Virus record (IMG/VR): IMGVR_UViG_3300017971_007915
Span: 1-64,000 of that record
Length of the DNA stretch: 64,000 nt
Strand: one strand, 5' to 3'
Origin: a virus
The notes beneath the pieces are model-generated. The model was not told the origin of the DNA, did not search any database, and worked only from the letters and a program-made list of their open reading frames with translations. Shown here piece after piece: positions 17,586-31,260 of the stretch (position 1 is the first letter of the stretch; each line of letters begins with the position of its first letter). Made by a program: the position numbers and the translations under genes.

Positions 17586-17603
17586 TTATTCCTCCAATAA
17601 ATG

Positions 17604-17677: not shown

Positions 17678-17683
17678 ATTATG

Positions 17684-17758: not shown

Positions 17759-17764
17759 ATAATG

Positions 17765-18262
17765 TTATCTTTCAAATTCTCCTATTATTTCATATTTATC
17801 CTTATCTATTTTTATATTTTTCCTATAAAAGCGATAAAACATTCCATGTAGAAAATAAGGTCTAAGTTTGTGTTCTGTTATATGCCTGTCTATGGGACGC
17901 TTATTATTTTCATCATAATCTGTATGCGTTCCTACGTACTTTCTAAAGTATTCGTGTTGTCTATCAAGTTGTTTTAAAAGTTTTTCTGGTATTCTATACA
18001 CTTTATAAAACCACTGGTATTCGTAATCAAAGAGTTCACCCTCTTCAAACTCCCATCCTTCTCTTTCGCAAACTTGTCTCCACTCTTCTTTCTCTTCCTT
18101 ATTAAACGGTATTTCATGTACAATTTCTTTATCAAATGCAAAATAAACTCTCTCTCCTTCCCACAACATAATTCCTGTTAATGGACCATCCCAGTAAGCT
18201 AGATGGTACAGAAATCTCGTTTGTCCATTAGTTTCTTTTGTTAGTTCATCAAGAGTTTTCAT
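17765..18262 (-). CDS. hypothetical protein
   Basis: A 165-residue acidic, aromatic-rich protein (many Tyr, Trp and Phe) located between tRNA-Phe and tRNA-Lys copy 2. Pattern: Leu-Tyr-His-Leu-Ala-Tyr-Trp-Asp-Gly-Pro-Leu-Thr-Gly near the start, then a Glu-rich helix and a basic C-terminus. I do not recognise a family. It is followed at once by the tRNAs, so transcripts probably read through. Confidence 0.6.
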   Translation of the reverse strand: MKTLDELTKETNGQTRFLYHLAYWDGPLTGIMLWEGERVYFAFDKEIVHEIPFNKEEKEEWRQVCEREGWEFEEGELFDYEYQWFYKVYRIPEKLLKQLDRQHEYFRKYVGTHTDYDENNKRPIDRHITEHKLRPYFLHGMFYRFYRKNIKIDKDKYEIIGEFER

Positions 18263-18265
18263 TTT

Positions 18266-18565
18266 TTATCCTGCATATTTCATTTTATCTCTGTATTCCT
18301 CTAAAATAGAAATTAACTTTTCTACCCCTTTTTTCTTTAGTACAAAAGCATCCGAATACGGGGAACCATAGGTCAGTATTCTCCATATTTGCCTTAACCT
18401 ATTTCTTAAACTTGGTTTACCAGTTATATTCCCATATTGATAAACTGAAAAATACAATAGAGATGGTTTCCCTTCTATTTCGAAATCCTCATCAAGAACT
18501 ATTTGAATAAGTTCTGTATGACAATCACATTCAATATATTTTGGTTCAAACATTTGACAACTCAT
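18266..18565 (-). CDS. conserved small phage protein
   Basis: A 99-residue protein. Cys-Asp-Cys-His near residue 14, then Phe-Ser-Val-Tyr-Gln-Tyr-Gly and Leu-Arg-Gln-Ile-Trp-Arg-Ile-Leu-Thr-Tyr-Gly-Ser-Pro-Tyr. This combination matches my memory of a small hypothetical protein common in tailed phages, function unknown. RBS GGAGG. Confidence 0.65.
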   Translation of the reverse strand: MSCQMFEPKYIECDCHTELIQIVLDEDFEIEGKPSLLYFSVYQYGNITGKPSLRNRLRQIWRILTYGSPYSDAFVLKKKGVEKLISILEEYRDKMKYAG

Positions 18566-18583
18566 ATCTATAACCTCCTTATG

Positions 18584-18657
18584 TGCGTCCTCTGAGAATC
18601 GAACTCAGTACCTCGACCTTAAAAGGGTCTTGCTGCTACCAATTGAGCTATGGACGC
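18584..18657 (-). tRNA. tRNA-Lys (TTT), copy 2
   Basis: Near-identical to the copy at 17.6 kb through D-, anticodon (CTTTTAA) and T-arms, but with a different acceptor (GCGTCCA/AGGACGC, one mismatch at the base of the stem). A duplication followed by acceptor change is the simplest reading. Its 5' end overlaps the 3' end of the next gene. Confidence 0.85.
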
Positions 18658-18878
18658 TTTAATAATCTAATAGAAAAACTTAATTCAAACTTGATAAGTT
18701 TTAATTTCAAGACCCATCCTAAAGTTTTAGATTCTATCCAAGTTTCAATACCGATATTAAATATAAAATCTTTATAGATTCCAGCAAATAATAAAATGTG
18801 TTCTCCATCAATTAAAGGATTTCTTGTTTTGTATGTAAAGAATCTCTTACTTTTACATTTGTACCATATGTCATTCAT
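18648..18878 (-). CDS. hypothetical protein overlapping tRNA-Lys
   Basis: A 76-residue protein with an AGGAG RBS. Mixed hydrophobic and basic, with Ile-Phe-Asn-Ile-Gly-Ile-Glu-Thr-Trp in the middle. Its last ten bases, including the stop, lie inside tRNA-Lys copy 2. The aromatic/Ile pattern is faintly like the neighbour at 18966-19133; a distant duplication is possible. Confidence 0.5.
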   Translation of the reverse strand: MNDIWYKCKSKRFFTYKTRNPLIDGEHILLFAGIYKDFIFNIGIETWIESKTLGWVLKLKLIKFELSFSIRLLKRP

Positions 18879-18892
18879 ATTAATCTCCTATT

Positions 18893-18965
18893 TCCGCTCG
18901 ACCGGAATCGAACCGATTGCCTCTCAGTTATCAGCCGAGTGCTCTACCTATTGAGCTACGAGCGG
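18893..18965 (-). tRNA. tRNA-Ile (GAT)
   Basis: Acceptor CCGCTCG/CGAGCGG, D-stem GCTC/GAGC, anticodon arm CTCGG-CTGATAA-CTGAG (GAT) and T-arm ATCGG-TTCGATT-CCGGT make a complete cloverleaf with A73. Confidence 0.93.
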
Positions 18966-19133
18966 TTAAGCAACATATTTTATATTTTTTCTCAAATCAT
19001 AAAATATTGCAAACTGTAACCATCTAAAACAACCTATTTTCCACCGGTATGTTTTGAGTTTAGGAATTACTTCAAATCTGTATAACAGTATCCCTGGTAC
19101 AGTATTCTTTGCTAATCCAATATTAATTATCAT
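18966..19133 (-). CDS. hypothetical basic protein
   Basis: A 55-residue protein started at 19133 after a GGAGG RBS; the longer frame to 19169 would translate part of a tRNA. Pattern: Gly-Leu-Ala-Lys-Asn, a beta strand, then Arg-Trp-Leu-Gln-Phe-Ala-Ile-Phe-Tyr-Asp. Its stop is 1 nt from tRNA-Ile. Not recognised. Confidence 0.55.
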   Translation of the reverse strand: MIINIGLAKNTVPGILLYRFEVIPKLKTYRWKIGCFRWLQFAIFYDLRKNIKYVA

Positions 19134-19144
19134 AGTTCCTCCTT

Positions 19145-19220
19145 TGGCGAGAGTGGGAGTCGAACCCACAGATTACAGAGTTTTTGGGACTCCAGCCTTT
19201 TCCAATTTAGCCATCTCGCC
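19145..19220 (-). tRNA. tRNA, isotype uncertain (CAA or CCA)
   Basis: Acceptor GGCGAGA/TCTCGCC, anticodon stem GGAGT/ACTCT and T-arm GTGGG-TTCGACT-CCCAC all pair. The loop CCCAAAA reads CAA (Leu) in the standard register but lacks U33; a one-base shift would read CCA (Trp). The variable loop is short, unlike a normal tRNA-Leu. Isotype left open. Confidence 0.75.
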
Positions 19221-19578
19221 TTAATTTGTTTCTTTTTGCTTGGTATGATCTATGACCTTCTCTACAAAGATCACATCTACATCCATGAGCATATTTGCTA
19301 TGTGTTCCATGATTTTCTTTTTTAAGTAAATTATGATGATAGTCACTATGACATTTTCTACACCATACAACACATTTTTTTAATTCTTTTTCTCTTCTCT
19401 CTTCAGACCAAGACCATATTTTATGATCTTCCTTTTCCTTTGGATTTTTATGATGTAATTCCAACTTTTCTATCGAACCACATTTTTCACATACTTTGTC
19501 TTTAAAAAATTCTAATCTTCTTTTCCTTACCCATAATTTAGCATATTCTCTTTGTTTGTTAACATCCTTATAAGACAT
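19207..19578 (-). CDS. HNH endonuclease
   Basis: A 123-residue free-standing HNH protein: Cys-Glu-Lys-Cys-Gly, Leu-Glu-Leu-His-His-Lys-Asn-Pro, then Lys-Ile-Trp-Ser-Trp-Ser-Glu-Glu-Arg-Arg and Cys-Arg-Lys-Cys-His-Ser-Asp, followed by a second Cys/His group. The Trp-Ser-Trp-Ser-Glu signature is common in small phage HNH proteins. Its last 14 bases overlap the tRNA at 19.15 kb. It probably promotes spread of this locus or aids packaging; homing is the usual explanation in a tRNA cluster. Confidence 0.82.
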   Translation of the reverse strand: MSYKDVNKQREYAKLWVRKRRLEFFKDKVCEKCGSIEKLELHHKNPKEKEDHKIWSWSEERREKELKKCVVWCRKCHSDYHHNLLKKENHGTHSKYAHGCRCDLCREGHRSYQAKRNKLRRDG

Positions 19579-19599
19579 ACTAATACTCCTTCAATTAAT

Positions 19600-19681
19600 T
19601 AGGAGCGAAGGGAGTTGAACCCTTACACCTTTCGGCATTGGAGCTTAAATCCAATGTGTCTACCAGTTCCACCACGCTCCC
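19600..19681 (-). tRNA. tRNA-Leu (TAA)
   Basis: A class II tRNA: acceptor GGGAGCG/CGCTCCT, anticodon arm TTGGA-TTTAAGC-TCCAA (TAA), a long variable arm TGCC-GAAA-GGTGT, T-arm AAGGG-TTCAACT-CCCTT. Reads UUA, the dominant Leu codon in AT-rich genes. Confidence 0.94.
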
Positions 19682-19686
19682 ATATG

Positions 19687-19765
19687 TGCCCCACCTCCGA
19701 TTCGAACGGAGACGCTTACGCACAGGGCCTAAACCTGTTGACTAGACCAATTCGTCTAATGGGGC
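19687..19765 (-). tRNA. tRNA-Leu (TAG)
   Basis: Acceptor GCCCCAT/GTGGGGC (one G-T pair), D-stem GAC/GTC, anticodon arm ACAGG-TTTAGGC-CCTGT (TAG), variable arm GCG-TAAG-CGT and T-arm CTCCG-TTCGAAT-CGGAG. Its 5' end overlaps the stop of a small zinc-ribbon gene. Confidence 0.94.
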
Positions 19766-19872
19766 TTACTTAATTTTAAAAGACCTCTACATTCAGGACA
19801 TTGCCAAGAATGTACAATATCAGTCATTATTTCAAAGACCTTTAAACATTTAAAACATACAAATCTTTTCAT
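19756..19872 (-). CDS. 38-residue zinc-ribbon microprotein
   Basis: Found between two tRNAs, with an AGGAGAGG RBS. Cys6-Phe-Lys-Cys9 and Cys25-Pro-Glu-Cys28 form a classic zinc ribbon and little else. Its last ten bases lie in tRNA-Leu(TAG). Confidence 0.65.
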   Translation of the reverse strand: MKRFVCFKCLKVFEIMTDIVHSWQCPECRGLLKLSKPH

Positions 19873-19887
19873 ATACCTCTCCTTATT

Positions 19888-19963
19888 TCCCCATGACAGG
19901 ATTCGAACCTGTAAAGATTTAGTCCCTCAAACTAACGCCTCTACCAGATCGGGCTACATGGGG
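19888..19963 (-). tRNA. tRNA with GAG anticodon (Leu), short variable loop
   Basis: Acceptor CCCCATG/CATGGGG, anticodon arm TTAGT-TTGAGGG-ACTAA and T-arm ACAGG-TTCGAAT-CCTGT are perfect. GAG reads Leu CUC/CUU, but the variable loop has only 6 nt, which is atypical for tRNA-Leu. The D-stem is 3 bp, as in class II tRNAs. Confidence 0.82.
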
Positions 19964-19969
19964 TTTTAT

Positions 19970-20362
19970 TTAATTTCTTATAACAACTTGCCTGCCAAAC
20001 CATGTTTTAAGAGGGTCAAATCCTCCTTTTATTAAAGTTTCTACATAACCCTGACTTCTTCGTACTTCATCATATTCTTTTCTTTCTTGTTCTTCTCTGT
20101 CATTTAATTCTTGTTGTTCATCTTCCAATTCAACTTCTTTATATATCATATCGAGGTCCATTTCAACAATTTCATTTATTTCATAAAGTTCGGCGTGTTC
20201 AAGCTGATTATCTCCAGTATAATATTCTTTAATAACTTTGATAAGTTCTACTTTAGCAGATTCTAGTGTTTTTGAATCCAAGTCAATAACATTAAGTCCA
20301 CATCCTATTGTGTAATCACATCCTTCCGCTTCTTGAACTATGTGTGCCTTATAAACTTTCAT
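19970..20362 (-). CDS. hypothetical acidic protein
   Basis: A 130-residue protein. N-terminal beta-like segment with two Cys (Gly-Cys-Asp-Tyr-Thr-Ile-Gly-Cys-Gly), a long Glu-rich helix (about 60-105) and a basic end. RBS AAGGGGG. It lies 6 nt from the GAG tRNA. Not recognised. Confidence 0.6.
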   Translation of the reverse strand: MKVYKAHIVQEAEGCDYTIGCGLNVIDLDSKTLESAKVELIKVIKEYYTGDNQLEHAELYEINEIVEMDLDMIYKEVELEDEQQELNDREEQERKEYDEVRRSQGYVETLIKGGFDPLKTWFGRQVVIRN

Positions 20363-20363
20363 T

Positions 20364-20519
20364 TTATTTATCCCCCTTTCTATTCTCTCTTAACTCTATG
20401 CAAATAGAGCTATTACACTCTTCTCCAAAATTAACTTTGCAATCGCATACGCTACATCTCCAACCCTTAATATATTCATTTATTTCGAAAAATTCTAAAT
20501 CTACACCTGTAGCTTTCAT
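20364..20519 (-). CDS. 51-residue Cys-containing protein
   Basis: Found in a gap. Cys24, Cys27, Cys29, Cys37 and Cys42 suggest a metal site (Cys-Ser-Val-Cys-Asp-Cys). It ends 2 nt from the next start. RBS is a weak AAGTAAGAG. Confidence 0.5.
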   Translation of the reverse strand: MKATGVDLEFFEINEYIKGWRCSVCDCKVNFGEECNSSICIELRENRKGDK

Positions 20520-20541
20520 CTCTTACTTCCTTCAAATATAT

Positions 20542-20592
20542 TTAATGACCTTCTAATGCCAATCTAATTAAATCCCCTTTAACTGTTTTCAT
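20542..20592 (-). pseudogene. N-terminal remnant resembling a macrodomain gene
   Basis: An ATG with an AAGGAAGG RBS opens only 16 codons: Met-Lys-Thr-Val-Lys-Gly-Asp-Leu-Ile-Arg-Leu-Ala-Leu-Glu-Gly-His, then stop. This start closely resembles the beginning of phage macrodomain (ADP-ribose-binding) proteins, which I recall as Val-Lys-Gly-Asp-Leu-Ile-Lys-Leu-Ala. The rest of the gene is gone, so this is probably a deletion scar. The comparison is from memory. Confidence 0.4.
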
Positions 20593-20602
20593 TATACCTT
20601 CC

Positions 20603-20890
20603 TTATGGTTGAATCACTTCATCTTCTTTCAACTCTTTAATATCTTTATCGAATTCTCCATTAGCAAACTTTTGAAGCACTTCAAGATTATCAAGAACCG
20701 CTTTAACTTTATTCTTGCTGAGATTAAATCCACCTCTATAGAAATTCCCTTTAATCTTTACCATTGGAACTCCAGAGCCAAGTTTAGGAAGACCTTCCTT
20801 ATCTTTTGGGACAAATTTGTAGAAGTGTTCGATGGTACTTGGTATTACTTCTTCGCCAGTTTCATCTTTTTCTAATTTAACTTTCTTCAT
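20603..20890 (-). CDS. hypothetical protein
   Basis: A 95-residue protein started at 20890 after an AAGGAG RBS; the longer frame to 20995 only adds out-of-family Lys-rich residues. It has a central Tyr-Lys-Phe-Val-Pro-Lys-Asp segment, a Gly-rich turn and an acidic helical end. Not recognised. Confidence 0.6.
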   Translation of the reverse strand: MKKVKLEKDETGEEVIPSTIEHFYKFVPKDKEGLPKLGSGVPMVKIKGNFYRGGFNLSKNKVKAVLDNLEVLQKFANGEFDKDIKELKEDEVIQP

Positions 20891-20891
20891 T

Positions 20892-21038
20892 TCAATCTCC
20901 TTTTTTAATTTTTTCTTTAAATTTTTCCAGTCTTTCTTTACTCTTTTTTTTAGCTTCTTCGCTTCTTTCTTTAAGAAGACCTTTCTTTGTAACATTAGAT
21001 AGTATATAATCTTGGATATCTATTTTATCTTTCTTCAT
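20892..21038 (-). CDS. 48-residue Lys-rich helical protein
   Basis: The start at 21038 follows a TTAAGGAGA RBS. A longer frame reaching 21158 merely translates tRNA-Asp backwards through its cloverleaf and was rejected. Product: Asp-Ile-Gln-Asp-Tyr-Ile-Leu then a continuous Lys/Glu helix. Function unknown. Confidence 0.55.
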   Translation of the reverse strand: MKKDKIDIQDYILSNVTKKGLLKERSEEAKKKSKERLEKFKEKIKKGD

Positions 21039-21060
21039 CTTAATCTCCTTAATTTTAATG

Positions 21061-21133
21061 CGGGGCTGACGAGTTTTGATCTCGCTACCTCTTGCGTGAC
21101 AGGCAAGCACTCTCCCAATTGAGCTACAGCCAC
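21061..21133 (-). tRNA. tRNA-Asp (GTC)
   Basis: Acceptor GTGGCTG/CAGCCCC (one mismatch), D-stem GCTC/GAGT, anticodon arm CTTGC-CTGTCAC-GCAAG (GTC). The T-loop is ATCAAAA instead of TTCRANN, so T54 is lost. Discriminator is G, as in normal tRNA-Asp. Possibly functional but decayed in the T-loop. Confidence 0.82.
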
Positions 21134-21169
21134 CATAAAAGTTATACCACAGCCCCATTATAAATTAGA

Positions 21170-21481
21170 TTATCTTTCATCTTTTTCCAAACCCAAGCAT
21201 TGCTTTAAGTAAGCTGCTAAATCTGCATCTTCTTCATTAGCCTCTTCTTTGTATTCTTCTAGTAGTTCTATAATTCTTTCTTTTAATGATTGGAATTTGA
21301 ATTCTTTCTTTTTGCCTGGTTCTAAATGAACATTATACCAGTTATCCCTCATTTTTGTAGCTTGGTCAAACGCATCTAAAGCATTTAATAGATACTCTGC
21401 TAAAATGTGGTCTGGTGTGTTACTGCCATTCTCTGCACTTGAAATATTAATTGCTTCCTTAATTTTCTCTCTTAAATCCAT
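21170..21481 (-). CDS. conserved phage protein (Ser-Ala-Glu-Asn-Gly-Ser-Asn-Thr-Pro-Asp family)
   Basis: A 103-residue protein beginning at 21481 after GGGAGG. The stretch Ser-Ala-Glu-Asn-Gly-Ser-Asn-Thr-Pro-Asp-His-Ile-Leu-Ala-Glu-Tyr-Leu, then Ala-Phe-Asp-Gln-Ala and Trp-Tyr, is a hallmark of a small protein found in many unrelated phages, function unknown. An acidic tail follows. Not membrane-bound. Confidence 0.65.
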   Translation of the reverse strand: MDLREKIKEAINISSAENGSNTPDHILAEYLLNALDAFDQATKMRDNWYNVHLEPGKKKEFKFQSLKERIIELLEEYKEEANEEDADLAAYLKQCLGLEKDER

Positions 21482-21487
21482 ACATAC

Positions 21488-22012
21488 CTCCCTTACTCCT
21501 TGTTCTTTTTTATAAATTTTATACATTCTTGAAAACCTGCAACAAAGTATGATTGTTCAGTTGCAGTCATATTTAATTTATCACTTATCTTTATTGCAAT
21601 GATTCCAGCTTCTTCTATATTTGGTAATAAATTATCTAACGTATCCATTTATCTTTACTCCTTTTGTGTATTGATATCCTTCATTTCATTTCTCTTTATA
21701 AGTTATTTTATTTAAATATATCTTTTAATATTTAAATTTATACCTCTCATATTTATTAAAATCACAATAATATGCATCACCATCTTCCCATACCCACGTT
21801 TTTAGATGATTACATTGCCCTTCCCCTTTTCTTACGATGCAACTCGTAGGACCAAGTATATTTAAGCAGAAATCTACTCCCATTATCACATCATATAAAG
21901 GGCAATAGGTAGGATGGGCTGATTTAGCATTTTCACTTGTTATCATAACAATTCTATTTATTTTACCAGTACCTTTACAATTAAGCATCTCCCTTACTCC
22001 TTGTTCTTTTTT
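21488..22012. repeat. 24-nt direct repeat pair
   Basis: An identical 24-nt segment (starting CTCCCTTACTCCTTG and ending in a T-run) occurs at 21488-21511 and 21989-22012. Each copy, read on the minus strand, carries an AAGGAG/GGGAG ribosome site just before a start codon (21481 and 21988). Confidence 0.85.
21493..21648 (-). CDS. 51-residue hypothetical protein
   Basis: Found in a gap, with an AAGGAG RBS. Acidic first half, then Thr-Ala-Thr-Glu-Gln-Ser-Tyr-Phe-Val-Ala-Gly-Phe-Gln-Glu-Cys, which reads like a conserved small phage family. Its 3' end lies in the 24-nt repeat that carries the next gene's RBS. Confidence 0.55.
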   Translation of the reverse strand: MDTLDNLLPNIEEAGIIAIKISDKLNMTATEQSYFVAGFQECIKFIKKNKE

Positions 22013-22285
22013 TATCTGGTCTTGTAACCAAAAATAGAGCTTATCTATGGTGAACTTTTCATTATAGAACGGAAGTGTTACTTCCCAATCAATCTTCTTT
22101 TCTGAAAGATATTCAATCATATATCCAACAAGCATCCTTTCATCCAGTTCAATCTCCCCATAACTCCCCATTCCAGCTACAATAGATATCCCTTCTTCTG
22201 ACAGTTCTATTTGTTTGTATCCTTTAGTTTCTTCTCCATATATGGTGTTGTTGTTTTCTCTCATCCAATTCCAAAATTCTTTCAT
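21725..22285 (-). CDS. hypothetical protein, possibly two fused genes
   Basis: A 186-residue frame. Residues 1-95 (Trp-Asn-Trp-Met-Arg-Glu-Asn, then Tyr-Gly-Glu-Ile-Glu-Leu-Asp, Met-Leu-Val-Gly-Tyr-Met-Ile-Glu-Tyr-Leu) resemble a common phage hypothetical protein. Residues 100-186 start at an internal Met (21988) with its own GGGAG RBS and contain six Cys (Tyr-Cys-Pro-Leu-Tyr-Asp, Cys-x-x-x-x-x-x-x-x-Cys). The junction is the 24-nt repeat, so the second part may be a separate gene that lost the stop between them. Confidence 0.6.
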   Translation of the reverse strand: MKEFWNWMRENNNTIYGEETKGYKQIELSEEGISIVAGMGSYGEIELDERMLVGYMIEYLSEKKIDWEVTLPFYNEKFTIDKLYFWLQDQIKKEQGVREMLNCKGTGKINRIVMITSENAKSAHPTYCPLYDVIMGVDFCLNILGPTSCIVRKGEGQCNHLKTWVWEDGDAYYCDFNKYERYKFKY

Positions 22286-22315
22286 ACTCCCCCTCTACCG
22301 ACAAACATAATTATT

Positions 22316-22400
22316 TGAACTAACATAGCCTAAAGGCTATGGATTCCTGATCTGAGCTTATTACATCTACACTCATATCTCTCAAACTGTTTCACAGTTT
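22316..22400 (-). other. IS200/IS605-like right-end / guide-RNA-like hairpin module (minus strand)
   Basis: Read on the minus strand: hairpin AAACTGT-GAA-ACAGTTT (22400-22384), about 40 nt, then GGAATC followed by hairpin CATAGCC-TTTA-GGCTATG (22341-22324) and TTAGTTCA (22323-22316). The AATCC-stem-CCTTTAGG-stem-AGTTCA pattern is like the right ends of TnpB transposons that encode the 3' part of omega RNA. No tnpB or tnpA gene is present nearby. Confidence 0.45.
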
Positions 22401-22427
22401 CGCTTATTCTCCATAAGTTAAGTGAAA

Positions 22428-23102
22428 TTACTCGCTTAATTCTTCTATGCTATAAATTTCCATATCTTCATATTTATCAGGCTTCAACCCAGAAGATGTT
22501 AAAGCGTTCCATAAAGCTTCTGCTTCAATTTCTAATTCTTTTCTTGATGTACTTTCACTCTCAAAAATAAATCTGTATTCTTCTTGAGGTTCATCAACAC
22601 GCATCAGTTCTTCAACTTCATCGTCTATTTTATAGCCCTTTCTCTCCAGCATTTCTGCTAAATCAGAAAGTTTACTAAAAAATTGTTTCATCGTTCCCGC
22701 AGTTTTCGTTACTTGTTCAGAGGTTAGCCCTAGTTCTTTTGCAATTTCTATTATTCTATTTCTATAAGGCTTGTATATTTCGTAGGCTTTTTTATATCTC
22801 TTTATCTTATCTCTTAATTCTGTGTTTTCTTTAGAGAAATTGTCTATTATCTCGTTCTTTTCTTTTAATAACTCTTTGTATTTCTCTAATCTTTTCTTGC
22901 TTTTTAATTTACTCTCTTTATAACTTTCTTCTTTTATTTCTTCTATTTGTTTATAATGATTATCACAAATCTCTTTTATTTTATTTTCATAATATTCTCT
23001 TAACTCATCTTCTTTTTCTTTATAAATCTTCTCAACTTTTGTTTTTTGAGCACTTAAAATCTTATCAAGTTTTTCTTTAGTCATCCGATAAGTTTTCGAC
23101 AT
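22428..23102 (-). CDS. long coiled-coil protein
   Basis: A 224-residue protein. Residues 5-125 are an almost continuous Lys/Glu heptad helix (coiled coil); residues 130-170 hold Leu-Gly-Leu-Thr-Ser-Glu-Gln-Val-Thr, a possible short HTH-like turn, and the tail is acidic. Phage coiled-coil proteins of this size include scaffold or chromatin-associated proteins, but nothing identifies this one. Between the guide-RNA-like module and tRNA-Met. Confidence 0.6.
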   Translation of the reverse strand: MSKTYRMTKEKLDKILSAQKTKVEKIYKEKEDELREYYENKIKEICDNHYKQIEEIKEESYKESKLKSKKRLEKYKELLKEKNEIIDNFSKENTELRDKIKRYKKAYEIYKPYRNRIIEIAKELGLTSEQVTKTAGTMKQFFSKLSDLAEMLERKGYKIDDEVEELMRVDEPQEEYRFIFESESTSRKELEIEAEALWNALTSSGLKPDKYEDMEIYSIEELSE

Positions 23103-23177
23103 ATTCTTATCTCCTTAATATAACATTAATAATTATATAAAAATATGTCTCATTTAAAGTCAATAAAAAAATACAAT

Positions 23178-23248
23178 TTGCGGGTGACAGAATTGAACTG
23201 TCCTGGGCGGCTTATGAGACCGTTGAGTAACCACTACTCTAACCCGCA
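23178..23248 (-). tRNA. tRNA-Met (CAT)
   Basis: Acceptor TGCGGGT/ACCCGCA, D-stem GAGT/ACTC, anticodon arm ACGGT-CTCATAA-GCCGC (CAT) and T-arm GACAG-TTCAATT-CTGTC. The CAT anticodon could also belong to a tRNA-Ile2 (lysidine-modified); the acceptor start T-A pair does not fit an initiator. Confidence 0.9.
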
Positions 23249-23254
23249 ATGTGT

Positions 23255-23525
23255 CAGTTTCTAATAGTGAGGATTCATCGGGTAGCTAATCCCTCCACCA
23301 CACGTTCGGCTTCACTGACAAGCTCGGTTGCACAGAGGAGTCCTGTTTAGGACACTGGTGTCCGTCCTCTCTTTACCTATAAAGGGTTAATTTAAAAGTT
23401 TTTGATATCGCTGTGCCAACGATAAAAGAGTTATATAGTACCCTATTTCTCTTGAATATTCAATGACTCTAGTTGTCTCAGTTCCTTTCGGTCACTGTTT
23501 AGAATATTCTGCTATATAACCCAAG
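23255..23525 (-). ncRNA. candidate structured non-coding RNA
   Basis: About 270 bp without a gene but with many strong helices on the minus strand: GTTATATAG with CTATATAAC (9 bp) enclosing CAGT-CC-GAAA-GG-CTG; AGAGGA with TCCTCT; two mutually exclusive hairpins, GGACAC-CA-GTGTCC and GTCCT-AAAC-AGGAC; and TGTCAGT with ACTGACA (7 bp) around a bulged stem. The density of paired elements is far above the window's norm. No known RNA family was recognised; tmRNA, RNase P and group I core motifs were looked for and not found. Confidence 0.45.
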
Positions 23526-23530
23526 ATGAA

Positions 23531-23579
23531 GAGGCGGAAAGGATCGAAAACCCATTGTACTGCCATTGTACTACGCCTC
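23531..23579 (-). other. minimal tRNA-like element lacking one arm
   Basis: GAGGCG at the 5' end pairs with CGCCTC at the 3' end over 6 bp, enclosing a perfect D-arm GTAC-AATGGCA-GTAC and only one further loop, GGG-TTTTCGAT-CC. It can be read as a T-arm, leaving no anticodon arm, or as an anticodon arm (TTC) without a T-arm. At 49 nt it is far shorter than a tRNA. It also contains the stop codon of the next gene. Confidence 0.45.
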
Positions 23580-23762
23580 TATATTATTTAATTTCTCAAT
23601 AATTTCCTTTTTGTTTTCTACAATTACTTGTGATAATTTTAATATCCCATAAAAACCTAATCTGTCTAAATCATTATGGTAATTTCTATAAAGCTTGTCA
23701 AGAAATTTAGCGAATTCTTTGTCTTTATCGCTAAAGAAATACTCCCAATTTTGTTTACTCAT
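23571..23762 (-). CDS. hypothetical protein
   Basis: A 63-residue protein: Trp-Glu-Tyr-Phe-Phe-Ser-Asp-Lys-Asp-Lys, then Leu-Tyr-Arg-Asn-Tyr and a helical C-terminus. GGGGG-type RBS. Its stop falls in the tRNA-like element. Not recognised. Confidence 0.55.
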   Translation of the reverse strand: MSKQNWEYFFSDKDKEFAKFLDKLYRNYHNDLDRLGFYGILKLSQVIVENKKEIIEKLNNIEA

Positions 23763-23776
23763 AAAAACCCCCTATT

Positions 23777-23849
23777 TGACGCTAGGGGGAGTTGAACCCG
23801 CCATTACAGAGTTGAAAGCCCTGTGGCCTAACCATTAGCCGATAGCGCC
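23777..23849 (-). tRNA. tRNA-Glu (TTC)
   Basis: Acceptor GGCGCTA/TAGCGTC, D-stem GGCT/GGCC, anticodon arm CAGGG-CTTTCAA-CTCTG (TTC), T-loop TTCAACT. One mismatch in the T-stem. Reads GAA/GAG, abundant here. Confidence 0.9.
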
Positions 23850-23854
23850 TTATG

Positions 23855-23926
23855 TGGAGCCGAGGGGAATCGAACCCTCGTCTTTTTGCTTGCAAAGCAA
23901 ACGCCTTCCCAGTTGGCTACGACCCC
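23855..23926 (-). tRNA. tRNA-Cys (GCA)
   Basis: Acceptor GGGGTCG/CGGCTCC, D-stem GCC/GGC, perfect anticodon arm TTTGC-TTTGCAA-GCAAA (GCA), T-loop TTCGATT with one T-stem mismatch. Fits the many Cys-rich proteins of this genome. Confidence 0.9.
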
Positions 23927-23988
23927 ATAAATAATGTTATTGTTGAATTTAAGTCAATGAATTTTTTATAATTATTAATAAAAAATGT

Positions 23989-24072
23989 AGGTCAGGAGGG
24001 ATTCGAACCCCCATCGGTTTTACCCTACACTTCATTAGCAGTGAAGCCTCTTACCAGTTAGAGTACCTTTCC
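23989..24072 (-). tRNA. tRNA-Ser (GCT), imperfect acceptor
   Basis: Anticodon arm CTTCA-CTGCTAA-TGAAG (GCT), a long variable arm containing GGGTAAAACC, and T-loop TTCGAAT show a class II tRNA-Ser. The acceptor GGAAAGG/CCTGACC has two adjacent mismatches and T73, so it may be damaged. Confidence 0.78.
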
Positions 24073-25156: not shown

Positions 25157-25687
25157 TTAAGGATATTCTGATAGTATTTCTTTTAATTCTTTAATAGTTT
25201 GATCAGCAGATTTATGTAAAATTCCAGTCCCGCCAGACTCTTTCCAGGCATTGATGTTTTTATCTCTATCATCTATTAGGATGGTATTTTTATTTTTTAT
25301 AAAATCTTCTTTTTTATTAGAGAAATTTACTTTAATATCTCCTATTTCTCTTCTTGCCCACGCTTTTTTATCTTCTTTACAATTCTTAACAGAATTTGCG
25401 GGTGTTGTTAATAATTCTACATCATAATCTTTTAAAAAATTCCATAATTTTTTACCATCTGGCATCCAATCCATGTTCAACCAATAATGGTCAGTTTCTT
25501 TATTTATGGTTTTCCATAGTGCTGGTTCGCCTTTCTTTTTAGAGTATTCTCTTGGATTTTCATAGCCTAAATCCATAAAAGCTTTTTCGAAATCGGTAAG
25601 CACTCCGTCCATATCCACGTAAATTTTTCGTCTCGTATCCGAGACTTTGATTAAATCATTAATAGTTTTCATATTTCTAAAGTTCAT
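25157..25687 (-). CDS. N-tagged HAD-family 5'-nucleotidase-like protein
   Basis: A 176-residue protein. Residues 1-16 are the shared tag (Met-Asn-Phe, Ile9, Leu12-Ile13-Lys14). The HAD core follows at once: Tyr-Val-Asp-Met-Asp-Gly-Val-Leu-Thr-Asp (about 24-33), with the nucleophile and acid Asp residues, then Leu-Thr-Thr-Pro and a distal Ile-Asp-Asp-Arg-Asp-Lys-Asn. It resembles 5'(3')-deoxyribonucleotidases, which dephosphorylate nucleotides. Phages often carry such enzymes for nucleotide turnover; the tag suggests that it is delivered or targeted with the five neighbours. Confidence 0.82.
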   Translation of the reverse strand: MNFRNMKTINDLIKVSDTRRKIYVDMDGVLTDFEKAFMDLGYENPREYSKKKGEPALWKTINKETDHYWLNMDWMPDGKKLWNFLKDYDVELLTTPANSVKNCKEDKKAWARREIGDIKVNFSNKKEDFIKNKNTILIDDRDKNINAWKESGGTGILHKSADQTIKELKEILSEYP

Positions 25688-25695
25688 ATTGCATC

Positions 25696-26007
25696 CTAAT
25701 GAGCAGTCTCTGTTTTAATAATATAATTTCTTGTATCATACATATCTTCATCATCATTATACAAAGGATGAATTATATCATTATATTTAAGTTCTTCTTC
25801 AATAACATCGGACGGTTTTATAAATGATTGAAGTTCTGATCCGTATGACCTATCCTCATTTCTTAATTCGTGATGTAAAGATTTCCATGTGTATTCAAGA
25901 GAACCGCCTTCATCTATAAGCTCATTTTTATTATATAATCTATATATGTTATCGCTATAAGCTTTTTTAATTAATTTATCAATATTATTTATTGATATAA
26001 AATTCAT
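25696..26007 (-). CDS. N-tagged hypothetical protein
   Basis: A 103-residue protein. Residues 1-16 carry the tag (Met-Asn-Phe ... Ile9 ... Leu12-Ile13-Lys14-Lys-Ala). The remainder is acidic and Tyr/Asp-rich, with no known motif. It sits between the tagged HAD enzyme and another tagged unknown, 8 nt and 1 nt away, so all are one operon. Confidence 0.7.
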   Translation of the reverse strand: MNFISINNIDKLIKKAYSDNIYRLYNKNELIDEGGSLEYTWKSLHHELRNEDRSYGSELQSFIKPSDVIEEELKYNDIIHPLYNDDEDMYDTRNYIIKTETAH

Positions 26008-26008
26008 A

Positions 26009-26710
26009 TTAATCCTCTTCTATATAATACTCTGGATTTTCAACATCCCTTTTTTCTAATTTATGATCAAAAGTAGTATAGTATGGTTTAACTTCTTTTT
26101 CAAAAGGTAATTCAATTTCACCGATTAAGTTCAAATATTTATCTAAAACTTTATTTTTAATTTCTCTTATCTCATTAGGAGTCATATCGTAAGTTCTAAT
26201 AAAGGGTTCTCCGTATTCTTGTTCATAAGCCCATTCAAAGAGTTTATCTATATCTTGATATTTGAAATATATATCCATCCAACCTTTAGGATATTCTTCA
26301 ACTTTACTATTGTTAACAACACCCCCGAAGTATTCAATTAGGTAAATATAAAAAAATCTATTGGGGTCAAGTGAATCTGATTCTCTGCTTATAATATAAT
26401 GAATAATTTCTTCTTCGTTTTCTCCCGCTTCTGATTTAAAAGCTTCAATTTCACTCTTAAATGCTTTAACAACTTCTGCATTTATCATAGATTCTGTAAT
26501 ATCGTCTTCTTTTGTTAAGCCGTACTGCGTTTTTAACATAAGAGGTGTCATACCCTTAGTATAGTAATCTTTCCAGGCATTTTTGAAATCGTTTTTGAAT
26601 TTTTCATTATTTAGTAACGATTCTATAGCGTTATTGAAATTAGAGATAGTTATTTTTTTATTACTCTTTTTTAATAATTCATTTATATTAATTATTTTTC
26701 TAAAATTCAT
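26009..26710 (-). CDS. N-tagged hypothetical protein
   Basis: A 233-residue protein started at ATG 26710, which overlaps the stop of the upstream gene (TAATG) and has a GGGGAG RBS; this puts the tag exactly at residue 1. After the tag the protein is helical and acidic with several Trp, and an Arg-Thr-Tyr-Asp-Met-Thr-Pro-Asn segment near 170. Architecture resembles the largest tagged protein at 28.9-29.9 kb, but I do not recognise a family. Confidence 0.72.
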   Translation of the reverse strand: MNFRKIININELLKKSNKKITISNFNNAIESLLNNEKFKNDFKNAWKDYYTKGMTPLMLKTQYGLTKEDDITESMINAEVVKAFKSEIEAFKSEAGENEEEIIHYIISRESDSLDPNRFFYIYLIEYFGGVVNNSKVEEYPKGWMDIYFKYQDIDKLFEWAYEQEYGEPFIRTYDMTPNEIREIKNKVLDKYLNLIGEIELPFEKEVKPYYTTFDHKLEKRDVENPEYYIEED

Positions 26711-28422
26711 TATTCTCCCCAAATCTCATTAAGGATTTCATATATTAAATAAATTTGATCATCGTTAAATTTCCATCTTACATTTACGTTTTTATCTGCC
26801 CATTCCATTGGAGTATTTGTACCTTTTTCTTCACTCATAGCACACCAATCGGTACAATTATGTAAAAAAATTCCTGATGTGATTGCAAAGTTATGATGAA
26901 CGTCAACTGTCATATCAAAAACATCTTTTTTTATGTCTTGTTTTTTTATGCTTATTATTTTATGGTTAACTGTATTATTTTTATGGGTTTTCATATGATT
27001 TCCTAAACCACCAGAGTTTCCGCAAATTTTACCACAAACAGAACATTCTATTGGCGTAGTGGCGTTTTTAATAGATGTTTTTCTCATTTTTTCTTTGTAT
27101 TTAGGGTTTTTCCAAATTTCTGAATTTCGGTTGGATTGTTTTTGTCTCCAATCAGGTATTACTTCGTGAAAACTTTTTATATGATTGGACAATGCTCCAA
27201 CATTTCCAAAAATTTTACCACAATAATTACATTTTTTACTTTTTTTATTTAATTCAATCATATTTTTAGACGCTGTTTTTTTGTGTTTTTTTGATTTGTT
27301 GTAATTAGTTAAATTTTTTGGTCCAGTTGTTTTACCTATAATTCCAACTCTTGTTTTTTGTTTTTTTCTAAATGCAGGATTTTCCCATAATTTTTTAAGA
27401 ACAGTACTTCCTACTTTTTTTTGTTTTTCAGAATGAATTTTGTAGTGGTTTTCTTTAGTCATTATTTCTAAATTAGAGGGGTCATTGTTTTTTTTATTAT
27501 TTTCATCCATAAAATTTTTATGGTGACAAACTAATTGGTTTGTTCCAAATTTTTTTGTATAATATTGATAACCACCAAAATACTCATCTACCATCATTCT
27601 ATGTGTTAACTTCCATTTATTGACATTTAAGTTGTATATTTGTTCATAACCATCTTTATCTTTCCTATATAGAGGCATAAGACTGTCTCCAACAACTAAA
27701 TCTTTAACTTCTTTATAAGTACCATCTCTCATCATAAATTTGTGATTATCAGTACAATCTACATATAAATCGTTATCTAGCGTGATTCTATATACCGTTG
27801 CATTTTTTTTAGTTTTTCTTACACTATGCCCTTTTCCAGGTACTATTTTACCTTCTGTTGTACAAGAATATACCCAAAATTCTTTTTCATTTACTAAATC
27901 TTTTATTTGTGTCTCTTTTCCATTTAATAAGGAAATTTTAGTATCTCCTGTTAAACACATTTCAGCTATATCTAAATCTTCCATAGCAGTAGCATCTATA
28001 ATCTCATCTGGTATTTCATCTCTGTTTTCTCTATTAATTTTACCTTTATTCTTACAATGAAATTCAGGGTGATGTCTATTATTATTAACGTGATGTTCTG
28101 TAGCATTGTTCATTAATTCTCTAACATCATCTGAAATATCAAAAGTGACGCCATCGTCTTTACACTTATAATCCCATGTTACTAAAATATAAGGTTCAAG
28201 TTCTGGATCTTTATATTTGCTTTGGTCGTGATCTTCCCCTCTTTCGATTATACCCTCAAATCTATTACCAAATCTATTGTGAATTCTTTTACAGTATTTC
28301 TTTGTTAAGTCAATATGGTTTTTAGTTCTTTTATCAAAGAAATCTTTCATACCTTGAGTAATATTAAGTCCCATTGCTTGTCTAATCAATTCGTTTATGC
28401 TATCTGCTAATTTAAAATTCAT
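26710..28422 (-). CDS. N-tagged DUF5662-like protein interrupted by an HNH intein
   Basis: A 570-codon gene. The mature host protein would be about 203 residues: tag (1-16), helical region with His-Asp-Gln-Ser-Lys-Tyr (65-70), then Glu-His-His-Val-Asn-Asn-Asn-Arg-His-His-Pro-Glu-Phe (110-121), and after splicing a Cys-Thr-Asp-Trp-Cys-Ala-Met motif. The His-rich pattern matches the phage DUF5662 family as I recall it; its function is unknown but a metal-dependent enzyme is likely. The intein (residues 156-522) sits exactly before the conserved Cys-Thr-Asp-Trp, a typical choice of insertion in a catalytic motif. Confidence 0.85.
   Translation of the reverse strand: MNFKLADSINELIRQAMGLNITQGMKDFFDKRTKNHIDLTKKYCKRIHNRFGNRFEGIIERGEDHDQSKYKDPELEPYILVTWDYKCKDDGVTFDISDDVRELMNNATEHHVNNNRHHPEFHCKNKGKINRENRDEIPDEIIDATAMEDLDIAEMCLTGDTKISLLNGKETQIKDLVNEKEFWVYSCTTEGKIVPGKGHSVRKTKKNATVYRITLDNDLYVDCTDNHKFMMRDGTYKEVKDLVVGDSLMPLYRKDKDGYEQIYNLNVNKWKLTHRMMVDEYFGGYQYYTKKFGTNQLVCHHKNFMDENNKKNNDPSNLEIMTKENHYKIHSEKQKKVGSTVLKKLWENPAFRKKQKTRVGIIGKTTGPKNLTNYNKSKKHKKTASKNMIELNKKSKKCNYCGKIFGNVGALSNHIKSFHEVIPDWRQKQSNRNSEIWKNPKYKEKMRKTSIKNATTPIECSVCGKICGNSGGLGNHMKTHKNNTVNHKIISIKKQDIKKDVFDMTVDVHHNFAITSGIFLHNCTDWCAMSEEKGTNTPMEWADKNVNVRWKFNDDQIYLIYEILNEIWGE
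26857..27957 (-). mobile_element. intein with HNH endonuclease and two zinc fingers
   Basis: 367 residues. N-terminal splicing block begins Cys-Leu-Thr-Gly-Asp-Thr; block B appears as Asp-Cys-Thr-Asp-Asn-His-Lys-Phe; the C-terminal end is Phe-Leu-His-Asn followed by Cys, so splice nucleophiles are intact. The middle holds an HNH nuclease (Leu-Val-Cys-His-His-Lys-Asn ... Asn-Leu-Glu-Ile-Met) and two C2H2-like fingers (Cys-x2-Cys ... His-x4-His). Self-splicing should restore the host protein; the HNH part should drive homing into intein-less alleles. Confidence 0.88.
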
Positions 28423-28432
28423 CTAAAAATTC

Positions 28433-28945
28433 CTATATTTTATTAAATTTATCAAATAATCTTTTACCTTCTTCAGTTTGTGGTCCTATAATATGTATAC
28501 TCGTTTTATTTGTAATATCCATAGCAAATTGTATCATAGCTTCTCCTATACCCATATTTTGATATTCAGGATTAACCTCAATTGCATTAATACTCTCTCC
28601 CCATATTATTAAAACGTTATGTTTTGTATATTTTGCTGTATTATAATCATCCCAAACAAACCAACCGATTATTTTATTTTCATTTAAATGTATTGTTTGT
28701 ATTTTAGGTTTATTGACAAGTCTTTGCAAATAACATAATTCTCCATTAGGTAGTGTTAGTGGTCTAATATAATTATTTATTTCTTCATCTGATAATCCCC
28801 ATTGCCTTTTTAATCTATTAACACTGTATTGATAATTGGGACTATCTTCGTATGTTTTTTGATTTTCTAAATATTCTTCTTCATCAAATTCTTCGGAAAT
28901 TTTTCTAAAAAAACCATCTATGTTATTTACCTTTCTAAAGTTCAT
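28433..28945 (-). CDS. N-tagged GNAT-type acetyltransferase
   Basis: A 170-residue protein. Tag at 1-16 (Met-Asn-Phe ... Ile9 ... Phe12-Phe13-Arg14), an acidic linker, then a GNAT core in the C-terminal half: Ile-Ile-Gly-Trp-Phe-Val, Ile-Glu-Val-Asn-Pro-Glu-Tyr-Gln-Asn-Met-Gly-Ile-Gly-Glu-Ala-Met (the acetyl-CoA loop Gln-x-x-Gly-Ile-Gly), ending Gly-Lys-Arg-Leu-Phe-Asp-Lys-Phe. It would acetylate a small molecule or protein. Delivery into the host at infection is a plausible reason for the tag. Confidence 0.78.
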   Translation of the reverse strand: MNFRKVNNIDGFFRKISEEFDEEEYLENQKTYEDSPNYQYSVNRLKRQWGLSDEEINNYIRPLTLPNGELCYLQRLVNKPKIQTIHLNENKIIGWFVWDDYNTAKYTKHNVLIIWGESINAIEVNPEYQNMGIGEAMIQFAMDITNKTSIHIIGPQTEEGKRLFDKFNKI

Positions 28946-29941
28946 TTAAAAAACTCCCATCTTTGCTAAATCTTCATCCCATTCAGTAGTGTCTTTATTA
29001 GACAATTCGTCTAAAAGAAACTTATCAACATTATAATGTTCTTCTTCAATATAGTCAAGCATACTTCCTGTTTGATGTGACGTATTTAATGCTATATTAA
29101 TAGTTACAATTTTATCTTTAAGTGATTTATTTTTTAAGTTTTTAAGTTCGTAATCTATTTCTTCTATTGTTTCTCTTGTTTCTACAATTCCTTGCTGTTC
29201 CCAATAATCAAACCACAGAGGAAAAACTCTTTTCTCATAAAAATTTTTAATCATTTCTTGTATGTCGGGGTGTTCTTTTATTATTGGATCAAGATTTTCA
29301 GAATCAAAATACCAATATGTGTCAATATATTCTTCTAATTCTTGAGGATTATCTAGATTTAAATTTTCAAGATATTCAATATTTTCTTTTGTGTTTTTAT
29401 AAGATTCTTCGTCTTCTGTTTCTTTAAAATAATCCAACTCTTCATTTAGACTTTGAATAGTATATTCTATTTCTTCTTCAAAAATATTTTTGAAATATTT
29501 TAGATTGTCTAAAAAAAATTCTTTTTTAAAATCGTGCTGATCTTTTTCTCCTATTTCATCTAAATATCTGTAGTATTCGTCTTCAACCATATTTAAAGAA
29601 AATTCTTCATCATGTGAATCTATTAATCTACTTCTAGCCCAAGTTTCGGCAGAGAGAAGAGCGTGTGTTTCTAACCACTTATCAAAGACTTTTAATAAAT
29701 CTTCTCCAACTTTATTCAATACTTTATTAAGATTGACTTCTATTATGGAGAGTATGTTATCTTTTCTTTTTGGGTTTATACCTAAAGATTGTTCGATTTT
29801 GTATTTCTTATATTCCCATTCATATATAGTTTCTAGATTTTCTGCCATATCTTCAGATACATCTATACCTAAATTTGATGTTTCTATAAATTTAGATAAT
29901 TTAATTAAATCAAATATGTTTTTAATACTTTTAAAATTCAT
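28946..29941 (-). CDS. N-tagged large acidic protein
   Basis: A 331-residue, strongly acidic, helical protein with the tag at residues 1-16 (Met-Asn-Phe-Lys ... Ile9 ... Leu12-Ile13-Lys14). Repeated Glu/Tyr/Leu-rich helices fill residues 60-330 (for example Leu-Asn-Glu-Glu-Leu-Asp-Tyr-Phe). No enzyme motif seen. First tagged gene of the operon (highest coordinate); it starts 2 nt after the next upstream gene's stop. Confidence 0.7.
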   Translation of the reverse strand: MNFKSIKNIFDLIKLSKFIETSNLGIDVSEDMAENLETIYEWEYKKYKIEQSLGINPKRKDNILSIIEVNLNKVLNKVGEDLLKVFDKWLETHALLSAETWARSRLIDSHDEEFSLNMVEDEYYRYLDEIGEKDQHDFKKEFFLDNLKYFKNIFEEEIEYTIQSLNEELDYFKETEDEESYKNTKENIEYLENLNLDNPQELEEYIDTYWYFDSENLDPIIKEHPDIQEMIKNFYEKRVFPLWFDYWEQQGIVETRETIEEIDYELKNLKNKSLKDKIVTINIALNTSHQTGSMLDYIEEEHYNVDKFLLDELSNKDTTEWDEDLAKMGVF

Positions 29942-30397: not shown

Positions 30398-31186
30398 TTA
30401 TAAAAATAGTCTTAAACTCACATCTACTATTGAGTCTGTAGAATTAACATTTACTGGTGGATTTGATGTATATTCTCTTCTAAATCCAATCTTAAATCCT
30501 ATTCCGCTTTTCTTTGTCCATTTTAAATCAAGAAAATCAAAACTCAAAGATGTTTCAAGTATAAATCTATATTCAGAAAAATCGTACAAAGGAATGTAAT
30601 AACAAAAGAATTGATATTTGATTACTTTAAAAAAGAATATGTCTATTCTATATCTAAAAGAATGGACAAAAGTATTAACAACATTTCTTGTTTTATAATC
30701 TTCATATTGATATGTTGGAGCATAACTAATATCCATTAATAAATAGGGGTTATTAAATATAATTAATTTAGGACCTATTCCAGTATTATTTCTGTATACG
30801 AGCTGTTCCATTTCGCTGTATTTGTTAAATGAAAAGAAAAACAATTCAAATCTTTTATGTAGTAAATAGTCTAAGTTAACTTTTCCAAAACCTTCATTAG
30901 AATGTATTTCAGATCCATCTGATTTTTCTTTGCTATATGAAAAATTAAAAGATGTTTTGTACGTGAAAATACCATTAAAATACATTATGCTGGTACTACC
31001 ACTTATCCCTATTGCGTCTATATTTCCAGTTTGGTTTTTAAAAGAAAAGTCAAGAGTGTAGAACCACTTTTTGTCATCTTTCTCTTTCTTTTTTAAAGGT
31101 TGGGTTGTCCATAGTATATTACCAATATTAGCAAATACAGGTAATGTGAATAACATTATTATTGTTAATAATATTAGTTTCTTCAT
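30398..31186 (-). CDS. exported beta-barrel-like protein
   Basis: A 262-residue protein. Start placed at ATG 31186 so that a signal peptide begins the product: Lys-Lys then Leu-Ile-Leu-Leu-Thr-Ile-Ile-Met-Leu-Phe and a Val-Phe-Ala end (residues about 1-18). The rest alternates aromatic and polar residues and ends Arg-Leu-Phe-Leu, as outer-membrane beta-barrels do. A GTG 12 nt further upstream lies in a hairpin and was rejected. In a phage this may alter the host outer membrane or block secondary infection; the host is therefore probably a diderm. Confidence 0.6.
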   Translation of the reverse strand: MKKLILLTIIMLFTLPVFANIGNILWTTQPLKKKEKDDKKWFYTLDFSFKNQTGNIDAIGISGSTSIMYFNGIFTYKTSFNFSYSKEKSDGSEIHSNEGFGKVNLDYLLHKRFELFFFSFNKYSEMEQLVYRNNTGIGPKLIIFNNPYLLMDISYAPTYQYEDYKTRNVVNTFVHSFRYRIDIFFFKVIKYQFFCYYIPLYDFSEYRFILETSLSFDFLDLKWTKKSGIGFKIGFRREYTSNPPVNVNSTDSIVDVSLRLFL

Positions 31187-31190
31187 AGAA

Positions 31191-31260
31191 TAACCCACTA
31201 ACTCTTAAAATGTATTTAAAAGATAAAAATTTTTTAAGAATTTTTAAGGTTAGTGGGTTA
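31191..31260. other. long inverted repeat before the beta-barrel gene
   Basis: TAACCCACTAAC (31191-31202) and GTTAGTGGGTTA (31249-31260) pair over 12 bp; an adjacent TTTTAAG/CTTAAAA extends the stem with one bulge. It fills the gap between two minus-strand genes and reaches to within 5 nt of the start codon. It may attenuate or stabilise the downstream message. No T-run follows. Confidence 0.65.

Follow-up and report, generated by a model that had tools for sequence, protein, structure and literature searches.

The stretch of DNA analysed here (64,000 nt, positions 1 to 64,000 of IMG/VR record IMGVR_UViG_3300017971_007915, hereafter the window) is part of a 111,658-bp virus record and comes from a large uncultured bacterial virus. 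Between positions 25,157 and 29,941 it carries six neighbouring minus-strand genes whose products begin with one shared 16-residue N-terminus, hereafter the tag, and continue into different bodies, referred to as cargoes 1 to 6 (Table 1). On the minus strand the six starts read MNFRNMKTINDLIKVS, MNFISINNIDKLIKKA, MNFRKIININELLKKS, MNFKLADSINELIRQA, MNFRKVNNIDGFFRKI and MNFKSIKNIFDLIKLS. Each begins with MNF at positions 1-3 and carries Ile at position 9, Leu or Phe at 12, Ile, Leu or Phe at 13, and Lys or Arg at 14 (6/6 in every column), and position 16 is Ala or Ser in five of the six, the exception being the GNAT gene with Ile16. The start of cargo 3 was taken as the ATG at 26710 and not the TTG at 26722. 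The tag and its columns are as described in the first-pass annotation, a reading of the sequence alone.

The same annotation held the bodies to be unrelated. This stands, the bodies being a deoxyribonucleotidase, a GNAT protein, an intein-split DUF5662 protein and three proteins without a confident family. Cargo 1 matches phrog_2643 (E=2.2e-30) from residue 19, with a Pfam NT5C match below the cut-off (E=8.3e-4), and cargo 5 matches Acetyltransf_1 just above it (E=1.2e-4, 22.7 bits vs a cut-off of 20.7). Cargo 4 matches DUF5662 (E=3.2e-19) and Intein_splicing (E=5.5e-21), with a Pfam intein span of residues 163-522 (about 26857-27936); this intein also contains a segment resembling HNH (PHROG E=1.2e-7) and, in two places, zinc-finger-like sequence. 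No match to cargo 2 was found in Pfam and PHROG searched at E 0.1, and none to cargo 3 in PHROG, Pfam giving just a sub-cut-off DUF29 match (E=0.023). The AlphaFold2 (AF2) fold of cargo 6 was discarded as not interpretable, its mean predicted local distance difference test (pLDDT) score being 51.7. Cargoes 5 and 6 had no match in named phages, and in viral contigs they matched only the same phage.

A more complete record of nearly the same phage (IMGVR_UViG_3300017963_000192, 217,703 bp, hereafter G001) was found via the nucleotidase, and the pieces compared between it and the window are 99.975-100% identical. A tag profile was built from the six island N-termini and applied to the window, to G001 and to relatives. 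Among 848 candidate starts in the window, in open reading frames (ORFs) of at least 40 codons, the six island tags score 40.7-48.2 and the next best start 18.0. When each tag in turn was held out of the profile, the omitted one still scored 32.4-42.2, vs 22.8-24.4 for the best unrelated start, which belongs to a 30-codon ORF. Sum-of-pairs scores of 1,763 runs of six consecutive genes from eight phage records have a mean of -12.5 (standard deviation 3.8); the island six rank first with 32.1, ahead of a look-alike gene array in the relative G012 (24.1), and 50,000 random sixes from G001 gave no value above -0.93. A regular expression for the N-terminus was rejected as too loose for tag calling, since it matched 13, 14, 10 and 9 times in G001, G002, G007 and G012 vs 4, 10, 4 and 3 times at an internal offset.

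G001 holds 12 tagged starts, the island six and six more, which together form the top of the profile scan. The best non-tag start scores 18.0 among 3,207 starts in ORFs of at least 40 codons, and 23.7, in a 30-codon ORF, in a looser scan of 4,571 starts (piece overlaps counted twice). The tag had been proposed as the mark of a cargo operon; the six-gene island is real, and the label extends beyond it. Four of the additional six tags lie at 134,548-137,708, between the portal and protease genes, and the minus-strand order runs portal, four tagged starts among other genes, protease, two long core-like proteins, neither assigned to a family with confidence, and last the major capsid. Three of the additional starts are internal to longer ORFs, and each has a loose ribosome-binding match; of the longer alternative starts, that of the 134,548 ORF also has such a match, which leaves its tagged start uncertain, and those of the 136,237 and 88,077 ORFs have none. 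The middle of the portal gene (L013 4710-9068 = G001 137710-142068, 1452 amino acids) also matches helicase and terminase profiles, which suggests, from sequence matches, an inserted intein-like element.

Table 1. Tagged genes of the window island, additional tagged starts of G001 and landmark genes of its head cluster (aa, amino acids)
Feature	Record	Position	Strand	Length	Tag or N-terminus	Basis or remark
Cargo 1, 5'(3')-deoxyribonucleotidase-like HAD protein	window	25157..25687	(-)	176 aa	codons 1-16, 25640-25687	
Cargo 2, no assigned family	window	25696..26007	(-)	103 aa	25960-26007	ORF + tag
Cargo 3, no assigned family	window	26009..26710	(-)	233 aa	26663-26710	ORF + tag
Cargo 4, DUF5662 protein with intein	window	26710..28422	(-)	570 aa	28375-28422	
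Cargo 5, GNAT-like acetyltransferase	window	28433..28945	(-)	170 aa	28898-28945	Ile at 16
Cargo 6, no confident family	window	28946..29941	(-)	331 aa	29894-29941	ORF + tag
Tagged start	G001	108,424			MNFRNIKNIKNLIKIA	score 42.5
Tagged start	G001	135,980			MEFRKANNINELVRKS	score 42.2
Tagged start	G001	134,548			MNLKNIDGINELLKTA	score 35.8; internal ATG of longer ORF
Tagged start	G001	137,229			MNFRNAVDINKLLSSK	score 30.2
Tagged start	G001	136,237			MEFRNIKSMEEMVKED	score 29.3; internal ATG of longer ORF
Tagged start	G001	88,077			MDYIGINNLKELIKTA	score 28.7; internal ATG of longer ORF
Portal	G001	137,710-142,068	(-)			phrog_16240 E=4.3e-71
Head-maturation protease	G001	133,441-134,325	(-)			phrog_18299 E=1.9e-14
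Major capsid	G001	126,278-127,444	(-)			phrog_2522 E=5.3e-53

Family relatives were collected by a capsid search (12 loci) and an alignment search (16 loci), 11 being common to both. Named-phage records matched the G001 capsid in 307 cases and the protease in 253, every match below 60% identity, and the closest named phage by capsid is Virus Rctr197k; in a search for the host, 72 genome_contigs stretches matched a capsid pattern, and 0/72 were confirmed. The six-tag profile gave three clear tags in G002 (252,876 bp), at 24,856, 91,904 and 76,860 (scores 44.2, 31.2 and 31.2, listed together), the last being a deoxyribonucleotidase starting MNLKGIATIKELLRKA. Two clear tags, with scores of 42.0 and 33.8, occur in G010 (121,553 bp), at 89,721 near a homologue of G001 gene 138 and at 12,823 adjoining the protease. 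Two G002 starts were set aside, 14,124 (GTG, 47 codons, 28.0) and 225,066 (26.0, within a core protein). The tagged genes at G001 88,077 and G002 24,856 are flanked by homologues of the same two genes, their bodies aligning weakly (best BLAST E 0.074). In addition, the tagged G002 nucleotidase lies after homologues of G001 genes 57-62 with a few untagged genes between, and the G001 island likewise follows these genes, so that the slot is kept and its content differs. Of 426 confirmed nucleotidase loci, 80 were kept and the N-termini of 40 read; among 160 named records with a nucleotidase, six N-termini were read: a tag-like extension is present in immuto and a short one in Melnitz, and the other four have none that is tag-like.

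Other shared N-termini were seen in G012. Eleven small adjacent genes (L163/L164, 169230-172370), perhaps paralogues, have look-alike starts such as MKIYRxKTxEExxxEFGxxW, and four genes (L155 and L158; 17990, 59682, 60274, 64352) have another common N-terminus, three of them fitting M[KR]xQxxxxFY[KR][KR]L[AS]G, which could be a further label or the beginning of a domain.

The tags might have no role in targeting and be alike as a by-product, either because neighbouring genes copied their 5' ends from one another or because translation initiation is under selection; the tight packing of the six genes and the loose ribosome-binding pattern upstream of 11 of the 12 tagged G001 starts would allow this. 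However, identical-residue pairs among the six tags use different codons in 39 of 98 cases, which means that copying of DNA does not account for all of the likeness; recent DNA duplication as its whole cause, which the first-pass annotation had also dismissed, is rejected. The tag also recurs at unlinked loci and in relatives, and an origin as a by-product is very improbable.

It appears that the tag is an add-on outside the cargo fold, a test that covers two cargoes. In G007 the orthologues of the nucleotidase and of the DUF5662 protein start at the enzyme domain, tag-free (the latter also without an intein), which makes tag and enzyme separable and rules out, for these two, a tag that is part of the fold. 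Loss of the tag from relatives' orthologues had been named as a sign against targeting; the outcome is mixed and does not oppose it, since the G002 nucleotidase keeps the tag and the two G007 orthologues lack it, a pattern that points to a removable module. In the AF2 model of the nucleotidase, pLDDT block means are 91-97 over residues 21-170 and 49 and 54 over residues 1-20; a separate helix is predicted at residues 7-16, with the tag detached from the fold, and the best PDB matches of the model are deoxyribonucleotidases. The structure alignment comprised 25 rows, L110 and L114 having been dropped from 27.

The tag is amphipathic, with a mean helical moment of 0.40 over 16 tags vs 0.24 for other G001 N-termini, and sequences of this type are able to bind membranes or partners. 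It could on that account direct proteins elsewhere in the infected cell, to a membrane, a host partner or the replication compartment, and have nothing to do with the head. Against such a destination stand the tagged genes between portal and protease in G001 and adjoining the protease in G010, as well as a motif common to tags and head proteins, and we consider it improbable. The argument from head context rests on G001 and G010, the G002 head-cluster start being only marginal.

With regard to this motif, hydrophobic-[KR]-x-[AS] occupies positions 13-16 in 9 of the 12 G001 tags, and residue 16 is Ala or Ser in nine and otherwise Ile, Lys or Asp, with Glu in 0/12. Over 16 tags (10 from G001, four from G002 and two from G010, the two weakest G001 starts being omitted and the marginal G002 218,723 included), Lys/Arg14, Leu/Phe12 and Ile/Leu9 are found in 16/16 and Ala/Ser16 in 15/16. 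The protease C-terminus reads PGR[LI]LK[VI]A in 9/9 sequences, in keeping with reports that SPN3US gp245 and phiKZ gp175 cleave their own C-terminus. Capsid N-termini were read for 15 of 17 distinct loci (L028 and L029 match only from residues 41 and 25), and [KR]xA precedes a mature-like start in 13/15 (12 distinct starts), the preceding residue being unrestricted. In the core protein, hydrophobic-[KR]-x-A occurs at two alignment columns in 6/6 genomes and at a third in 5/6, with Thr in G001. Sites that resemble the tag end, and are candidates for cleavage, thus occur in the protease, the capsid and the core proteins.

In hand-chosen sets of head proteins, tagged genes excluded, hydrophobic-[KR]-x-A is 1.8-2.8 times as frequent as in shuffled sequences in six family genomes. 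Observed and expected counts, with the number of 400 shuffles reaching the observed value, are 21/7.6 (0) in G001, 21/9.6 (0) in G002, 17/8.6 (4) in G007, 16/7.3 (1) in G010, 22/8.2 (0) in G012 and 14/7.9 (8) in G004. G014 (IMGVR_UViG_3300008448_000004, 180,934 bp), a T4-type phage unrelated to the G001 family and used as the chance-level control, gave no enrichment over five head proteins (7/6.0, 166 of 400). A two-hydrophobic form of the motif was left unused (z scores 1.9, -0.1, 3.0 and 1.2 in G001, G002, G007 and G004).

Tag-like segments were also seen inside core proteins, away from the N-terminus, in L041 (G002 225066-226997, MDFRNFSTVQELFQDALSKS) and L020 (5247-7109, MDFREMNSVEELFQDAMNKG), and the tag may mimic a scaffold helix. 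These segments (G002 225,066; L020 5,247) would suit a tag that docks proteins on the scaffold core or another virion part without being cleaved, the proteins staying in the virion or acting in assembly and not being injected; so would the four tagged starts within the G001 head cluster and the three G001 tags that lack the motif. On the other hand, nine of 12 G001 tags do end in the motif found again in the protease, the capsid and the core, and a deoxyribonucleotidase and a GNAT protein seem to have no evident assembly role. Docking without cleavage is considered unlikely, though not negligible.

The reading we prefer, at a probability of about 0.7, takes the tag to be a capsid targeting sequence (CTS) that works like that of T4. 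The lineage, in which neither a gp21/S77 protease nor a gp23-family capsid was detected, would use a predicted cleavage motif of its own and carry a cargo island of changeable content. Through its amphipathic helix (Phe3, Ile6, Ile9, Leu12, Ile13) the tag would dock each protein on the scaffold core as the prohead grows. The head-maturation protease that the phage encodes would then cut after hydrophobic-[KR]-x-[AS] at about residue 16, and the freed enzymes would be ejected with the DNA into the next host cell. The six genes would form a cargo island varying in content between relatives, with the same label on small head-cluster genes and two single genes elsewhere. As for the roles of individual cargoes, it can only be guessed that the nucleotidase handles nucleotides and that the GNAT protein modifies a host protein. 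The analogy with T4 had been drawn from the island; it gains from the head-cluster tags beside the protease, the cleavage-like tag end, the tag-free orthologues and the G014 island described below, and we infer packaging, trimming and injection from it.

Several observations weigh against a cleaved CTS of this kind. The motif is absent from the tags of the GNAT gene, 136,237 and 137,229, [KR]xA from the capsid N-termini of L019 and L020, and the head-cluster tags at 134,548 and 136,237 sit within longer ORFs. The residue before the cut (P1) was narrowed to Ala after the sequences had been viewed, and widening it to Ala or Ser lowers the head z score from 5.0 to 3.7 in G001, 3.6 to 3.0 in G002, 2.8 to 2.4 in G007 and 2.3 to 1.4 in G004. 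G001 proteins outside the head set show a mild excess of the motif as well (123 vs 91.6), and a control pattern, hydrophobic-[DE]-x-A, is also high in G004 (z 2.9). The T4 motif followed by Ala or Ser ([LI]xE[AS]) is enriched in G014 heads (2 of 400 shuffles), and also in those of G001 (14 vs 6.7, 2 of 400), G004 (13) and G010 (15), so the cross-control is not clean. Among relatives, G007, G004 and G011 show no tag under the six-tag profile (nothing above 18.5), and G012 has one weak candidate (29,727; 26.0) without the motif at 13-16. The G002 head-cluster start 218,723 (MDFIEAKTLSALLKTA) is marginal, its score of 23.2 being comparable to those that starts attain by chance (23.7 in G001, 22.2 in G014) and lower than those of the two set-aside starts, 14,124 and 225,066.

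A parallel island occurs in G014 at 154,408-158,875. Of its seven adjacent genes, five fit a tag pattern that ends in [LI]xE: MIKLLDILKEA (on a deoxyribonucleotidase), MIKLIDLLEEQ, MIKLINILKEE, MIKLRDILKEV and MIKLGTILYEV; the other two (MKLQLLEA and MNLTAFNLAKSIVED) are similar by eye only. As in the window phage, adjacent genes carry short N-terminal tags and one encodes a deoxyribonucleotidase, whereas the G014 tags are about 10 residues long (MIKL..[IL]L.E), end in Glu, and accompany gp21 and gp23 homologues. Searches for gp21 (PF03420) and gp23 (PF07068) matched G014 alone, with no match in G001, G002, G007, G010 and G012. T4-like tags (MIKLIDLLMEA, MVKLIDLLLEA) were also seen by eye in other uncultured phages, on genes beside a deoxyribonucleotidase (L084, L088, L101, L106, L112). 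There is perhaps an even chance of a broader pattern, in which every phage lineage with a distinct head protease uses a loading label of its own at the N-terminus, ending in the local cleavage motif, and the enzyme sets loaded from changeable islands overlap, at least two lineages having a deoxyribonucleotidase.

To our knowledge, a deoxyribonucleotidase, an acetyltransferase and a DUF5662 protein are not among known injected proteins. Injected proteins of uncultured phages are invisible in annotation, and a sequence label linked to the protease would expose such cargo; if the reading is true, shared N-termini together with the head-protein motif would make these proteins readable from the genome. 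A further use of the tag could be as a novel peptide signal by which foreign proteins are loaded into phage heads. In T4 examples, phage proteins injected with the DNA help counter host defences and start takeover (PMC3012670, PMC9026906).

Elsewhere in the window, a DUF481 protein (E=8.6e-14) is encoded at 30398-31198, one gene from the cargo island, 13 tRNA genes form a single minus-strand stretch at 17603-24072, and the protein at 43922-46207 gave no match in named phages.

The closest known system is that of T4, for which the literature describes the CTS as a 10-19-residue N-terminal propeptide on diverse proteins, mediating core docking and then cleaved at a short motif (PMC9026906, PMC3012670, PMC5694885). 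T4 internal proteins enter the prohead core with gp67 and gp68 via the CTS (PMC5694885, PMC9026906), and cleavage follows [LI]-x-E, with CTS residues 4 and 7 serving targeting and 8 and 10 processing (PMC9026906). Both the T4 CTS and the window tag are short N-terminal peptides on unrelated proteins of one phage. Unlike the T4 CTS, the tag is carried by a six-gene enzyme island as well as by scattered genes, its predicted cut is after hydrophobic-[KR]-x-[AS], and it falls outside a strict T4 CTS/gp21 definition, with no gp21-family (S77) protease or gp23-family capsid detected in the five family genomes and no Glu16 in any tag.

The giant phages phiKZ (gp175) and SPN3US (gp245) have head-protein propeptides and a protease that cuts its own C-terminus (PMC9026906, PMC5694885, PMC10052503). 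In the text available from these papers, their motifs end in Glu (S/A-x-E, A-x-E), and gp45 is the one N-terminally processed protein of SPN3US described as having a CTS-length propeptide; the window tag differs in its 16 residues and Ala/Ser end, and an Ala-at-P1 motif would differ from the Glu-ending motifs there given for T4, phiKZ and SPN3US. In P1, an N-terminal segment of DarB suffices to load a reporter into the capsid, and the authors found no consensus among Dar N-termini by BLAST (PMC9024508). The first-pass annotation had called the tag apparently undescribed. This holds for the sequence in the literature searched, which was chiefly on T4, P1 and SPN3US/phiKZ, mostly without subscription papers, and in whose available parts neither this tag nor an Ala-ending motif is described for this phage group; it does not hold for the principle, already known from the T4 CTS, P1 DarB and SPN3US propeptides. 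By analogy with these systems, the tag appears to be a new sequence with a CTS-like logic, in which, unlike in P1, one consensus marks many proteins.

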